A DNA stretch of 64,000 nt. Source: Gammaproteobacteria bacterium. GTDB taxonomy: Bacteria > Pseudomonadota > Gammaproteobacteria > Pseudomonadales > Azotimanducaceae. The position numbers were made by a program, and so were the translations under genes. The notes under the pieces are model-generated. The model searched no databases and had not been told where the DNA came from. It worked only from the letters and a program-made list of their open reading frames with translations. Below, piece after piece: positions 39,165 through 43,453 of this stretch. Location of the stretch: contig VXNM01000010.1 in NCBI GenBank assembly GCA_009840545.1, positions 840,627 through 904,626 on the forward strand. The letters are read 5' to 3'. Within the stretch, counting starts at the first letter, position 1; every line of letters begins with the position of its first letter.

Positions 39165-40022
39165 ATGGCTAATTTCGTTCCTACACCTCGAGATTTGCTT
39201 GGGCTGGTGGTTCGCGGATTCGCAATGGGACTAGTCGAAGTGTTGCCGGGCATATCTGGCGGGACCATTGCATTGCTGACGGGCATATACGATCGGCTCG
39301 TCACGGCACTGTCCGATTTGACAATGTGGACAAAGAACTTATTTAAGAAGAGGGACTTTGATCTGGTCGAGCTGTCGCGATCTCTCGTTGTGATTGCTCC
39401 GTTGGCGATGGGAATGATCGTTGGATTCGGTGTTTCGGTCCTATCTGTTTCTCATGTTCTTGAAACTCGACCCATGCTGGTGTGGGGCGCAGTTTTTGGG
39501 CTTGTGGCAGGTGCTGTGATTTTTACCGGTCTCTCGTCTAAAGTACGGATTCTCGTGATGTTTGCGCCAGTAGGTTTCGCTTTCGCGCTCCTGTTCAATC
39601 TGCTTCCAGGAAGAGAAGCTGATGCGTCTCTCATTGTCGTGTTCGTGGGTGCGGTGCTTGCATTCGGCGCGTGGATCTTACCGGGAATTTCTGGCTCTTT
39701 CGTGCTACTTGTTCTCGGTGTTTGGACGACAATGGTGCAAGCGTTCGCTTCCGTAGATCTGCTTGTGATTTTGGTATTTTTGGCGGGGCTTAAGACTGGG
39801 TTCTTGGTATTCTCGCATCCCATCCGCGTCTTACTTGATAAGTATCGCGATGCTCTGATGGCTGTCTTTTGCGGTTTGCTTGCGGGTTCGCTGTGGCGTA
39901 TATGGCCATGGAACTCGAGCCAGGTTGAACCATCTTCAGTATTTGTAGTCGTGCTGGTGATGTGTTCTTCATTTCTTGTAATTTGTGTGTTGACCTATGC
40001 AAAAAAACATAAAGAAACTTAG
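39165..40022 (+). CDS. DUF368 family membrane protein, likely undecaprenyl-phosphate translocase
   Basis: Polytopic membrane protein (about eight hydrophobic segments) with the two DUF368 signatures: MGLVEVLPGISGGTIALLTGIY near the N-terminus and GAWILPGISGSFVLLVLGVW in the second half, the repeat related by inverted topology. DUF368 members (PopT) have been shown to return undecaprenyl phosphate across the membrane for reuse, so a carrier-lipid recycling role fits. Start at ATG 39165, 5 bp after pcm; the frame upstream lies in pcm. The 3' end overlaps the lipoprotein gene nlpD by 26 bp. Together with UppS in this window it serves the C55 lipid cycle. Confidence 0.85.
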   Translation: MANFVPTPRDLLGLVVRGFAMGLVEVLPGISGGTIALLTGIYDRLVTALSDLTMWTKNLFKKRDFDLVELSRSLVVIAPLAMGMIVGFGVSVLSVSHVLETRPMLVWGAVFGLVAGAVIFTGLSSKVRILVMFAPVGFAFALLFNLLPGREADASLIVVFVGAVLAFGAWILPGISGSFVLLVLGVWTTMVQAFASVDLLVILVFLAGLKTGFLVFSHPIRVLLDKYRDALMAVFCGLLAGSLWRIWPWNSSQVEPSSVFVVVLVMCSSFLVICVLTYAKKHKET

Positions 40023-41019
40023 CGTTTGCATCTTGGTTGTTGTGCTGTGTTCGCTATTGCCGAGTTGCAGTACCCTCAAACCGGCACCAGTTGTAGACCG
40101 TTCGCCAGGAATGGACCAACAGCTGTCCGGGAATCTTCGTACCTATCGCTATATCGTAAAGTCGGGCGACACCTTGTATGCAATCTCGAAATTGCATGGA
40201 TTGACAGTCGCTCAAATTGCCGAAATGAACGGACTGGAGCCTCCGTACACGATTATTCCGAACCAAGTTTTGGTGGTCACTCCCTCTCGCGTACTCTGGC
40301 AGGAGAATATTGCCGCTGAGGAGAACAGCAACTGGGAAATCGTTCCAGCTCGGCGACAACCAGAAGACTCACGATCTAAACCGACTCCAACGGTTGTAAC
40401 GCAACAATCTTCGGCGACAATTGCGCAGTCCAATACCAATCCGGCGAAGCCACCCGAGGTTCGAAAGGCCGAAAAAACACCAATCCGGACTCAAGATGCG
40501 CTTCAAGACGAGAAGCCAGCCATCACAACGGTTTCAATCGACGTAACGGGCGAGGCTTCATCTACAACCACTGAGCAACCCGTGGACGTCGGGGAAGTCG
40601 AAACGGTTGCACAAGAAGATTCACCAAGTCTTGATTCTTTGCCGAAGGGTTGGGAGTGGCCAGTGAACACTAGGCCAACCAAGCCAAAAGGCAATGATGA
40701 CGGATTAACCTACTTCTTGAATCGAGGTACAAACGTCGTTGCTGCTGCATCCGGTAGGGTGAGCTATGCCGGTGTTGCGTTGAGTGACTATCGCTACATG
40801 GTACTTGTCAAGACTCCCGATAACTATGTGATTCAGTACGACTTCAATACTGAATTGAAGGTAAAGGAAAATGACATAGTTTCAAAGGGCCAACCACTCA
40901 TCCGAATTTCAAATAAAGGCGTCCCCAAGAGTGAGGACGAAGACTTATACCGGCAGATTTACTTCGCCATTTGGCACAAGGCAGTTCCTCAGGATCCCAA
41001 CAAACTAATTGGACGCTAA
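39997..41019 (+). CDS. nlpD: NlpD-like murein hydrolase activator lipoprotein
   Basis: Outer-membrane lipoprotein that activates cell-separation amidases. A lipobox LLPSC puts the lipidated Cys at residue 24. A LysM domain follows (YIVKSGDTLYAISKLHGLTVAQIAEMN, ~50-90). A long disordered Thr/Pro/Glu linker covers ~110-215. The C-terminal LytM (M23) domain (NVVAAASGRVSYAG..) is degenerate: the AYAHN motif of E. coli NlpD appears as QYDFN, so no metal site remains. That fits an activator without own hydrolase activity. In relatives rpoS follows; here it is absent and an island begins. Confidence 0.88.
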   Translation: MQKNIKKLSVCILVVVLCSLLPSCSTLKPAPVVDRSPGMDQQLSGNLRTYRYIVKSGDTLYAISKLHGLTVAQIAEMNGLEPPYTIIPNQVLVVTPSRVLWQENIAAEENSNWEIVPARRQPEDSRSKPTPTVVTQQSSATIAQSNTNPAKPPEVRKAEKTPIRTQDALQDEKPAITTVSIDVTGEASSTTTEQPVDVGEVETVAQEDSPSLDSLPKGWEWPVNTRPTKPKGNDDGLTYFLNRGTNVVAAASGRVSYAGVALSDYRYMVLVKTPDNYVIQYDFNTELKVKENDIVSKGQPLIRISNKGVPKSEDEDLYRQIYFAIWHKAVPQDPNKLIGR

Positions 41020-41095
41020 AGGGACATTGACTCCTTCCTAGACAAACAACTGCGCTGACTACTTGGGTGGTCTTAGGGGTTAGTCAAATTCCAGG

Positions 41096-42133
41096 CTAGA
41101 GGCGCAAAGCAGCTTTGACGCTGCGAGCAATCACCTGAGCGAAGGGAGGCGGAACTGCATTGGCGACTTGACTGTGCTGGTCTAAGTCTCTAACGGACCC
41201 AGATAGTCGCCGAATTGGGCCGTGGAATACGTAGCGATCCTCAAACCCTTGAATCCGAGCGGTTTCACGGGGTGTCAGGTAGCGATCCTCGACGGGATGA
41301 AATAGTCTCTCTCCGGAACGCAAAGTGGGAGCGGGAAGGCTTCGGTCAAGACGTCGGAACTTTGTGGAGTCCCGTGGAGTGAGCTTCTGAATGATGTCCG
41401 GAGGCGCATCGGACTTGGACAACCAATCTCCTTCTCGAACATACGCTATGCGGACTCGGTCCCTGGGTGGTGTAGCGTCAATGTGGTTGGGCACACCGGG
41501 GTCTTTCTCTGGTTTAACTGCCGGGGGCAATCCATCGATTGCCTCTTCAGCAGTGGAGGGAGCGGAAAGCAAGACTTGGTATGGGAATTCGTACGTCTGA
41601 TCGCGTGGCAAACAAACAATAAAGACTTGCTTGCGGTTCTGTGGAATTCCATAGTCGACAGCATCGAGAACTATCTGGTGCAAGTCGTAGCCAATAGTCT
41701 TGAACTCTTCGGCCAACACATCCTTGAGTAGCGCTTTTGGCGAATATTTGGTCTTAAGGAATCTCGGAGCCTGTGCGATTAGCACTGCGGATGGCCTCAA
41801 CGCTTGTGCGAACCGCACCATTTCAAGAGCTAGGTGATCTTGTGGGTGAGATATGCCCTTTTTTAGTCCGAGCTGATTGACCGGTTGCGTGGGAGGTCCA
41901 CCGTAAAGGAGTGCCAAGTCCTTGCGACGGGCACCTAGAGAAAAGGCAACACGGGATGGATCCAGCACTCGAATATCCACTTGCCACACCGTTTTTTGAC
42001 GCGAGTTTCGACGAAGTGTGGACACACAATGTGGATCAAGCTCTATGGAGCACAGAGTCTTGAATCCGGCTTTGTCTACTCCTACGTCCAATCCGCCAGC
42101 CCCGGAAAAGAGGCTAACTGCTGGATGTTTCAC
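41096..42133 (-). CDS. DNA cytosine-C5 methyltransferase homologue with degenerate catalytic motifs
   Basis: 345 residues with the fold and motif order of C5-cytosine methyltransferases. Motif I SLFSGAGGLDVGVDKAGF (7-24) and motif II SIELDPHC look able to bind SAM. Motif IV reads GGPPTQPVNQLG: Thr82 (codon 41888-41890) replaces the catalytic Cys of PCQ. Motif VI reads LIAQAPRF (A-Q-A, 41768-41776) in place of ENV, losing the Glu that holds the base. Motif VIII reads QNRKQ, lacking the second Arg of QxRxR. Motifs IX (LPAPTLRSG) and X (QVANAVPPPFAQVI) are recognisable, with a TRD-sized region between. So it may bind DNA and SAM without methylating C5. The frame is intact, arguing against simple decay. 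It overlaps the upstream RHH gene by 20 bp. Confidence 0.85.
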   Translation of the reverse strand: MKHPAVSLFSGAGGLDVGVDKAGFKTLCSIELDPHCVSTLRRNSRQKTVWQVDIRVLDPSRVAFSLGARRKDLALLYGGPPTQPVNQLGLKKGISHPQDHLALEMVRFAQALRPSAVLIAQAPRFLKTKYSPKALLKDVLAEEFKTIGYDLHQIVLDAVDYGIPQNRKQVFIVCLPRDQTYEFPYQVLLSAPSTAEEAIDGLPPAVKPEKDPGVPNHIDATPPRDRVRIAYVREGDWLSKSDAPPDIIQKLTPRDSTKFRRLDRSLPAPTLRSGERLFHPVEDRYLTPRETARIQGFEDRYVFHGPIRRLSGSVRDLDQHSQVANAVPPPFAQVIARSVKAALRL

Positions 42134-42368
42134 GGTTGGACCTTACTGGTTTCGGCTTAATCGCTTGAGAGTCAAGGGAACCCGATAGCGTGACCTCTTT
42201 GAGGTCGTCTCTCAGTGCATATTCCTCGCATGCCTTTCGAATGATGTAAGACAGTGATCGATCTTCCCTGCTGGCAATGGCCTTTAATCGAGAGTGCAAA
42301 GCATCAGAAAGACGAACCTGATTGATGCGGTCGTGGGGACCTTTCCGATACTGCCTCTTGTCATCCAT
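42114..42368 (-). CDS. Ribbon-helix-helix DNA-binding protein
   Basis: 84-residue protein. Residues ~15-53 (INQVRLSDALHSRLKAIASR, then EDRSLSYIIRKACEEYAL) match the CopG/Arc ribbon-helix-helix pattern: a short basic strand, a first helix, a turn with Ser-Leu-Ser, and a second helix. The tail is disordered and Ser/Arg-rich. Such proteins dimerise and bind repeated operators, often their own. It is the first gene of a two-gene operon with the methyltransferase-like gene (20-bp overlap), and tandem TGTNN units lie 16 bp before its start codon. Not recognisable as a known antitoxin, though that fold is shared; the partner is not a typical toxin. Confidence 0.75.
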   Translation of the reverse strand: MDDKRQYRKGPHDRINQVRLSDALHSRLKAIASREDRSLSYIIRKACEEYALRDDLKEVTLSGSLDSQAIKPKPVRSNRETSSS

Positions 42369-42383
42369 GCTGCAAATTCCATA

Positions 42384-42423
42384 TGTGTTGTAGTGTAGTG
42401 TATTGTATTGTAGTGTGGTGTTC
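42384..42423 (-). repeat. Eight tandem 5-bp TGTNN units upstream of the RHH gene (candidate operator)
   Basis: Read on the + strand, eight consecutive pentamers all begin TGT: TGTGT, TGTAG (x2), TGTAT (x2), TGTAG, TGTGG, TGTTC. On the coding (minus) strand each ends in ACA, and two TACAAT hexamers inside the array match a -10 box well. The array ends 16 bp before the RHH start codon. Ribbon-helix-helix repressors such as the omega repressor of streptococcal plasmids bind arrays of short tandem units, so autoregulation is likely; strand-slippage variation is another possibility. Confidence 0.6.
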
Positions 42424-42647
42424 TTAGGTACAGTGTCTTACTTTCTTGTCTGAAAACTACTCGGTGCGCCTTGAAGGAAACAAGATCCAAGAACGATATC
42501 TGAGTAGCGAGCCGATTCGAGCGCTCTTGCGCCTCCCCGAGTGCATGTTGTGAATAATCGACGGCAGGATCGGGGTCTTAATTCAATCTGAAACCTGTGG
42601 TAGGAATGGTCGGTACAAGTAGAGCAACAGGCAATGTCCGGAGCTCA
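42424..42647. other. Gap between the RHH operator and the permease fragment
   Basis: About 220 bp without a supported gene. It should contain the -35 region for the RHH operon on the minus strand and any promoter of the permease fragment. GGAG at 42638-42641 is a good ribosome site for the ATG at 42648. A GAGCGCTC palindrome lies near 42517. No sRNA is recognised, although rsmZ sits near here in Pseudomonas. Confidence 0.3.
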
Positions 42648-43094
42648 ATGACGAGACTTCTAACTGTAGTACTTGCCGAAATGCGGTCTGCCAGACGCCG
42701 AGTGAGATTTTGGGTGCTGTCATCACTCCTTTCCTTGTTTTCATTAACCGGCTATGTAGTTGCGTGCGTATTTGCTCTCTACACATCAGTGAGTTCACCG
42801 TCTTTAGGATCGACTACTCCTTATTACCTTCTCGGAACTATTGATCCGGTCTTCTTTGCCGCGTTTCAAGCTGCCGTTGTTTTTCTTGCATTTGACATTT
42901 CCAATCAGCGGTCGGTGGATCGAATTGGAGAAGTTCTGGATTCGAAACCGGTATTGAATATTGAATATCTGCTAGGCCGAGTAATCGGAATCACGTTCCT
43001 TGTTTGGCTGATAGTGGCTTTCAACGTTTTGACGATGCAATCCGACGGACTAAGACAAAGGACTCTATCTTGGATCGTGAAGAGCGAGCGGTAA
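42648..43094 (+). pseudogene. N-terminal fragment of an ABC-2-type permease-like membrane protein
   Basis: 148 residues from ATG 42648 with three or four hydrophobic segments (FWVLSSLLSLFSLTGYVVAC, VFFAAFQAAVVFLAFDI, VIGITFLVWLIVAFNVLTMQ). The motif RSVDRIGEVLDSKPVLNIEYLLGRVIGI resembles the N-terminus of large ABC-2-type permeases that have AFD..R..R..EVLD.KPVSN..LL.GR. Those proteins are several times longer. Here similarity stops after about 130 residues and the frame ends in a short basic tail (RQRTLSWIVKSER), so I read it as a 3'-truncated remnant. A small functional membrane protein cannot be excluded. Confidence 0.55.
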
Positions 43095-43129
43095 CCAACC
43101 AATAGTAAATAAGCCTCGAACCGTACTGG

Positions 43130-43453
43130 CTAAAGTTCTAAGTACTTTCTCTTGTCGGGTACTTCTCGCCACTCCTCTTCGTCCGGCAGAGGATCCTTGG
43201 CTTCGGTAATGTTCGGCCAGATCTCGGCCTGCTCGGCGTTGATTTCCAAAAACTCAATCTCATCTTCCGGAAGCTCGTCTTCGGGGAAGATTGCATTGAC
43301 GGGACATTCTGGCTCGCAGAGGGCGCAGTCGATGCACTCGTCGGGATGAATAACCAGCATGTTTGGACCTTCGTAGAAGCAGTCCACAGGGCAAACTTCC
43401 ACGCAGTCGGTCAATTTGCATTTGATGCATGCCTGACCAATGACGAAAGTCAT
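43130..43453 (-). CDS. fdxA: Seven-iron (7Fe-8S) ferredoxin FdxA
   Basis: Low-potential electron carrier with one [3Fe-4S] and one [4Fe-4S] cluster. The ligand patterns [18 protein letters not shown] and [13 protein letters not shown] are typical of FdxA, and the acidic C-terminal tail ([15 protein letters not shown]) matches the family. ATG 43453 gives 107 residues ([13 protein letters not shown]), the usual start; an earlier ATG adds 11 unrelated residues. fdxA next to mutS is conserved in Pseudomonas-like genomes. Confidence 0.95.

Follow-up and report, generated by a model that had tools for sequence, protein, structure and literature searches.

A NotI-type cytosine-C5 methyltransferase of Gammaproteobacteria that has lost its catalytic pocket and keeps its frame, SAM site and target-recognition region

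The window analysed here, a stretch of 64,000 nucleotides from a gammaproteobacterial genome (G000), encodes a cytosine-C5 methyltransferase (MTase) homologue whose catalytic pocket is eroded, although its reading frame has been kept by selection. Both the loss of catalysis and the selection on the frame are well supported. Judged from sequence comparison and predicted structure, there is about an even chance that the gene represents a retired restriction-modification (R-M) methyltransferase, retained to serve as a sequence-specific DNA-binding protein that depends on SAM or SAH.

A full-length homologue with an eroded pocket

The product matches Pfam PF00145 over residues 6-340 (3.1e-43) and also TIGR00675, with a score above that model's cutoff. 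The features of the gene and its surroundings are collected in Table 1. An earlier note, made from the letters alone, had claimed that three catalytic features were lost together (PTQ, AQA and QNRKQ) from a full-length frame with motif I and motifs IX-X kept, and the codons and the single open frame confirm this. Its account of the individual motifs stands for the loss of the Glu, the Val and the R165 equivalent, but requires correction in the baseline it used for motif VI: the active form in the family described below is EQV, not ENV, so that only Glu and Val have been lost and Gln121 is ancestral. R163 is also kept, as is Asn325.

Table 1. Features of the methyltransferase locus, with positions in the window
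Feature	Position	Strand	Remarks
nlpD	39997..41019	+	One flank of the insertion site; found in 18/18 genomes of the genus
Pseudo-C5-methyltransferase ORF, 345 aa, GTG start	41096..42133	-	Full fold, eroded catalytic pocket
Motifs IX and X (TPRETARIQGF, QVANAV)	41099..41284	-	Kept
Target-recognition region, residues 207-283	41285..41515	-	Strongly conserved
Motif VIII, QNRKQ (Gln165..Arg167..Gln169)	41627..41641	-	HhaI R163 kept, R165 -> Gln
Motif VI, AQA (Ala120-Gln121-Ala122)	41768..41776	-	EQV replaced; HhaI Glu119 lost
Motif IV-V catalytic loop, residues 78-104	41822..41902	-	PTQPVNQLGLKKGISHPQDH where active enzymes have PCQPFSQIGK..DPRG
Thr82 (ACG, 41890-41888)	41888..41890	-	At the catalytic Cys position (HhaI Cys81); motif IV is PTQ
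Motif I, LFSGAGGLDVG, residues 8-18	42080..42112	-	SAM site, kept
Ribbon-helix-helix (RHH) ORF, 84 aa	42114..42368	-	20-bp overlap with the MTase start; weak RHH_1 and RelB-like matches
Ferredoxin gene (fdx)	43130..43450	-	Opposite flank, followed by mutS

The PC dipeptide, the motif VI Glu and the QxRxR of active C5 methyltransferases are all missing from the protein. Formation of 5mC by the normal mechanism is impossible without the nucleophile, and, with the equivalents of Glu119 and Arg165 gone as well, the protein has no known path to 5mC. That it is a still active enzyme with unusual motifs is extremely improbable: the retention of motifs I, IX and X and of R163 would fit, but the nucleophile Cys, the motif VI Glu and R165 would all have to be dispensable, and R165 equivalents are required for methylation in M.HhaI, M.SssI and Dnmt3a (PMC4802922).

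The AlphaFold2 model of the protein (pLDDT 89.5) aligns with M.HhaI, M.HaeIII and DNMT1 at Z values of 29-34 (VIA-align). Residues 84-98 of the catalytic loop alone fall below a pLDDT of 50, which is not evidence by itself, because a flexible loop in an active enzyme can also score low.

Trivial explanations of the altered motifs were considered as well. A sequencing or assembly error is unlikely, since no position of the Thr codon ACG matches the Cys codons TGC and TGT, and another genome carries losses of its own. A split or frameshifted enzyme with its catalytic motifs elsewhere was rejected, there being a single full-length frame and no second PF00145 match. A lone recent mutation is ruled out, as the orthologue in a congener (G003) is also dead.

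Genomic context

The MTase gene is present in only two of the 18 genomes of the genus and absent from the other 16. By nlpD identity the next congener is G014, whose site is unoccupied; there, 26 bp separate nlpD from fdx. No rpoS is found between nlpD and the ferredoxin-mutS genes (39997-43450), the position that rpoS occupies in many gammaproteobacteria. Between the RHH and ferredoxin genes, a 165-aa ORF (42597-43094, plus strand) with many hydrophobic stretches and no Pfam or NCBIfam match is perhaps a fragment of a membrane protein. A scan for promoters and terminators yielded nothing above chance.

The RHH ORF is a possible operon partner of the MTase in the window. No homologue of it was found among 206 genomes of the family, and it is missing from G003; being restricted to the window's species, it was rejected as a general, conserved partner.

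No endonuclease remnant is detectable at the locus or elsewhere in the genome, and the protein is the sole C5-MTase (PF00145) encoded in this assembly, which is 96% complete. A role as an accessory subunit that stimulates or targets an active methyltransferase, as DNMT3L and DRM3 do, is a known type of role for dead C5-MTases of animals and plants (PMC2965745), but the lack of another PF00145 protein makes it very improbable here, at least as far as C5 partners go, although a partner of the adenine or N4 kind is conceivable.

Origin from a NotI-like restriction-modification pair

Whole genomes and public assemblies yielded relatives at 45-66% identity in Gammaproteobacteria, Bryobacterales, Candidatus Synechococcus spongiarum, Chloroflexi, Gemmatimonadetes and others; in the search of public-assembly contigs, a single-protein query gave nothing and an alignment query found relatives. 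Many of these relatives are marine MAGs, and, judging from record titles and isolate codes, most of the close ones would come from sponge or coral associates. Farther relatives (37-45%) are spread over many phyla, and viral contigs, plasmids and phages yielded distant relatives only. Two loci, L088 and L091, in records labelled Gammaproteobacteria and Cenarchaeum, also have the pair, at 45-48% identity to the MTase of the window; either transfer between domains or mis-binning is suggested by this.

At most of these loci, the MTase gene shares an overlap with a second gene, of 315-370 aa, whose product has no Pfam or NCBIfam match and weak PADLOC matches to type II endonucleases. The model of this partner (pLDDT 89.6) has NotI as its sole significant fold match (3bvq, E 1.7e-6), and in its sequence Asp139 and Glu154 are invariant and Glu125 nearly so. 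The NotI fold, the kept acidic residues and the overlap with the MTase together indicate that the ancestral unit was a NotI-like type II R-M pair.

These endonucleases constitute a widespread NotI-fold family for which Pfam and NCBIfam hold no model (L059:1462-2409, L064:5026-5970, L044:10958-11926 and others), with conserved Glu125, Asp139 and Glu154-x-Met156 and a Cys-rich N-terminal part.

Conservation and loss between two congeners

The orthologue in G003 occupies the same nlpD-ferredoxin-mutS site, is 64-65% identical over 345 aa with zero gaps, and is likewise catalytically dead. Thirteen genes around it are collinear in the two genomes. At 0.36 for 4-fold sites, the MTase is saturated like most of these neighbours (0.35-0.71), which dates its presence at this site back to the common ancestor; its protein identity is close to that of truD and nlpD (68-69%). 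In the tree, the two dead copies are monophyletic (support 99.9/100) and sister to the active L059, which has its endonuclease. The earlier note had asked whether the loss is conserved as a clade, and it is.

Among the near-invariant sites, as defined in 23 active relatives, four have changed identically in both copies (G71K, R169Q, V195A and R310L). R169Q, counted as a shared change by plain parsimony, is the only catalytic change identical in the two; since R169 corresponds to HhaI R165, the loss of one or more catalytic residues predates the split. The remaining losses are concentrated in the pocket. The SAM motifs I-III keep 20 of 20 near-invariant residues in G000 and 19 of 20 in G003, the target-recognition region 32 and 33 of 35, the C-terminal part 20 and 21 of 23, and motif IX 12 of 13 in both, against 11 and 6 of 18 in the IV-V loop (seven of 18 lost in G000) and 3 of 5 in motif VI of either copy. 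Pocket identity between G000 and G003 is 0.31, compared with 0.68 elsewhere in the protein, whereas in 89 pairs of active relatives with the same overall divergence it is at least 0.57; the pocket has diverged more than chance would allow.

The retention of the target-recognition region as the best kept part would also suit a protein that shields sites, occupying the old recognition sequences and blocking circulating NotI-like endonucleases without methylating them, and the NotI-like pair does circulate in neighbours from several phyla. Methylation, however, is far better protection than binding, and shielding leaves the loss of catalysis unexplained; we regard it as decidedly unlikely.

Selection on the frame, which the earlier note had proposed, is borne out: an omega of 1 is rejected for the pair (2dlnL 186), no stop is present, and dN/dS lies far below 1, although the size of omega is not quotable because synonymous sites are saturated (branch lengths 6 and 13). 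In simulations of neutral drift up to the observed loop changes (12 in G000, 19 in G003), about 7 to 11 stops were expected, against the zero present. As far as these sequences go, earlier selection and selection that followed the loss are not fully separable in this pair, for which the timing of purifying selection relative to catalytic loss is probable rather than firm.

Repeated loss of catalysis

Eroded pockets occur in five lineages of the family, solely where the endonuclease is lost or decayed: in none of 14 loci with an intact endonuclease, against 11 of 22 without one (Fisher p 0.002, kinship of loci ignored). This restriction argues that decay or loss of the endonuclease came first and pocket erosion after. 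Besides G000 and G003 (PTQ/PWE, AQA/VQG, QNRKQ/QRRRQ), the lineages comprise G234 and G236 (loci L089 and L090; PTR, a loop deletion, EQP and motif X Asn -> Thr); five Bryobacterales loci (L066, L067, L070, L068 and L087), in which the Cys is kept but followed by other residues (PCP, PCV or PCL), R165 is replaced by Gln and, in L068, the Glu by Gly; L074 (PRQ); and L079 (altered loop, Cys kept). From their sequences, the Bryobacterales enzymes may be called impaired rather than proven dead. Loss of the nucleophile or of the motif VI Glu was found in none of the more distant family members in the motif table.

Decaying endonuclease genes stand beside several MTases (L074:5026-5595, L081:2417-3003, L061:5157-5502); the MTase of L074 already lacks the catalytic Cys, and the MTase pockets of L081 and L061 are intact. 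In the genus of G234 and G236, a BCCT betaine/carnitine/choline transporter gene (L090:2342-3892, and in L089) is the immediate upstream neighbour of the dead MTase and has the same orientation.

L089 and L090 provide the cleanest case of purifying selection following catalytic loss, as they avoid most of the timing problem that affects the window's pair. Their dead motif, a 7-residue loop deletion and the motif X change are common to both, and since then they have diverged by 80 synonymous and 41 nonsynonymous codons, with an omega of 0.08 (2dlnL 169 against omega of 1). A pseudoenzyme under selection is thus found firmly in G234 and G236, and with support, at saturated synonymous sites, in G000 and G003. 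In the former, omega is as low as 0.10 within the changed pocket too, and this conservation could be taken, along with the kept SAM site and most of the fold, as a sign that the pocket has been rebuilt for a different reaction on DNA or RNA. The pocket residues of G000 and G003 differ from one another (T/W, A/V, A/G, N/A), a pattern that fits drift and not a new active site, and a new chemistry accordingly seems quite improbable to us.

The Bryobacterales clade evolves at an omega of 0.19 against a background of 0.07, with omega of 1 rejected (2dlnL 148). Between L066 and L067, five nonsynonymous and one synonymous changes fall in the pocket, and omega outside it is 0.09; the pocket alone looks neutral.

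The higher omega of this clade would be expected if these genes were decaying pseudogenes, useless once the endonuclease was lost, with the frame intact by luck and most of the conservation older than the loss. Consistent with such decay, the dead copies of the window's lineage have evolved faster than their active sister (tree paths of 0.47 and 0.70, against 0.19 for L059), stops are present in two loci of the family (L031 and L063) and decayed endonucleases in others, and 16 of 18 congeners lack the gene. Decay is nevertheless rather unlikely: neither G000 nor G003 has a gap or a stop over saturated divergence, where neutral simulation yields about seven stops, the loss is restricted to the pocket, and L089 and L090 have stayed at their low omega following a loss common to both.

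L066 and L073 occupy the same site, L073 with an endonuclease and L066 without. According to a survey, solitary MTases rarely arise by in-place degradation of R-M systems (PMC4176335), and loci of this type look like exceptions to that rule, although replacement by recombination is possible there, because the MTases are more divergent at synonymous sites than their flanks (4-fold identity of 0.53, against 0.79-0.81).

Proposed history and role

The earlier interpretation holds for the loss, the clade, the selection and the kept SAM and target-recognition parts. It missed that the MTase is half of a NotI-type R-M pair, and this origin alters the account, in that the endonuclease had already gone or decayed when catalysis disappeared. 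We propose that an ancestor of the two congeneric gammaproteobacteria acquired, between its nlpD and ferredoxin genes, a compact type II pair in which the genes for a C5-MTase and a NotI-like endonuclease overlapped. The endonuclease, which is gone from the locus, would have been lost first; the MTase would then have shed the parts that are missing from its sequence (the closing loop, the nucleophile and its contacts to the flipped base), with purifying selection maintaining the fold together with the SAM pocket and the target-recognition region. The protein may now sit on the old recognition site as a repressor, a roadblock or a site shield.

A kept SAM site and recognition region beside a lost pocket point to a protein that binds specific DNA sequences in a cofactor-dependent way. 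When the R165 equivalent is mutated in related enzymes, methylation falls strongly and DNA binding remains (PMC4802922), and in solved complexes with one such residue changed (M.HaeIII C71S; M.HhaI E119A, R165A and R165N) DNA is still bound. M.SsoII requires AdoMet or AdoHcy for its specific DNA complex and is also a transcription repressor, by way of an added N-terminal domain (PMC3978073). By analogy, the window protein would bind DNA, depend on SAM or SAH and exert a regulatory or roadblock effect. Counted against this reading are the lost loop, which also helps to hold DNA, the lack of a known fused repressor domain, the RHH neighbour not being common to G003, and the restriction of the gene to two of 18 genomes of the genus.

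More broadly, it is possible, though we hold it somewhat short of an even chance, that bacteria have a recurrent route from R-M to regulation, in which NotI-type C5-MTases that lost their endonuclease repeatedly shed catalysis and were kept as SAM-gated, sequence-specific DNA-binding proteins. If true, such a route would be a bacterial counterpart of dead Cas proteins or DNMT3L. The usual explanation for orphan methyltransferases is the mark that they place on DNA. Several lineages here gave up methylating but not the protein, whose usefulness must then lie in something else. Non-catalytic roles of DNA methyltransferases in bacteria can thus be put to the test in this family, which also warns against reading 5mC into every annotation of a cytosine methyltransferase; the before-and-after loci of some clades, notably L073 and L066, allow the path to be studied.

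Comparison with known systems

No description of a selected, catalytically dead clade of bacterial C5-MTases was found in a search confined to open papers, which makes this weak evidence of novelty. The nearest systems are the active MTases of the NotI-like pairs (L059, L073, L064 and others), which share the fold, the target-recognition region and the length of the window protein at 60-66% identity; L059, L073 and L064 keep PCQ, EQV and QxRxR beside an intact endonuclease, whereas the window gene is without both. Solitary methyltransferases such as Dcm likewise lack an endonuclease, but they are studied for their methylation, which the window protein cannot perform. DNMT3L of animals and DRM3 of plants resemble it as catalytically mutated C5-MTase homologues under selection (PMC2965745), although they partner active paralogues, and the window's genome has no other C5-MTase. 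In the proposed role of DNA-binding regulator, the likeness is to M.SsoII and M.EcoRII, C5-MTases that repress their own gene (PMC3978073, PMC3874152); these are active and carry an added N-terminal helix-turn-helix, a domain that the window protein lacks, its motif I beginning at residue 8 without any extension.
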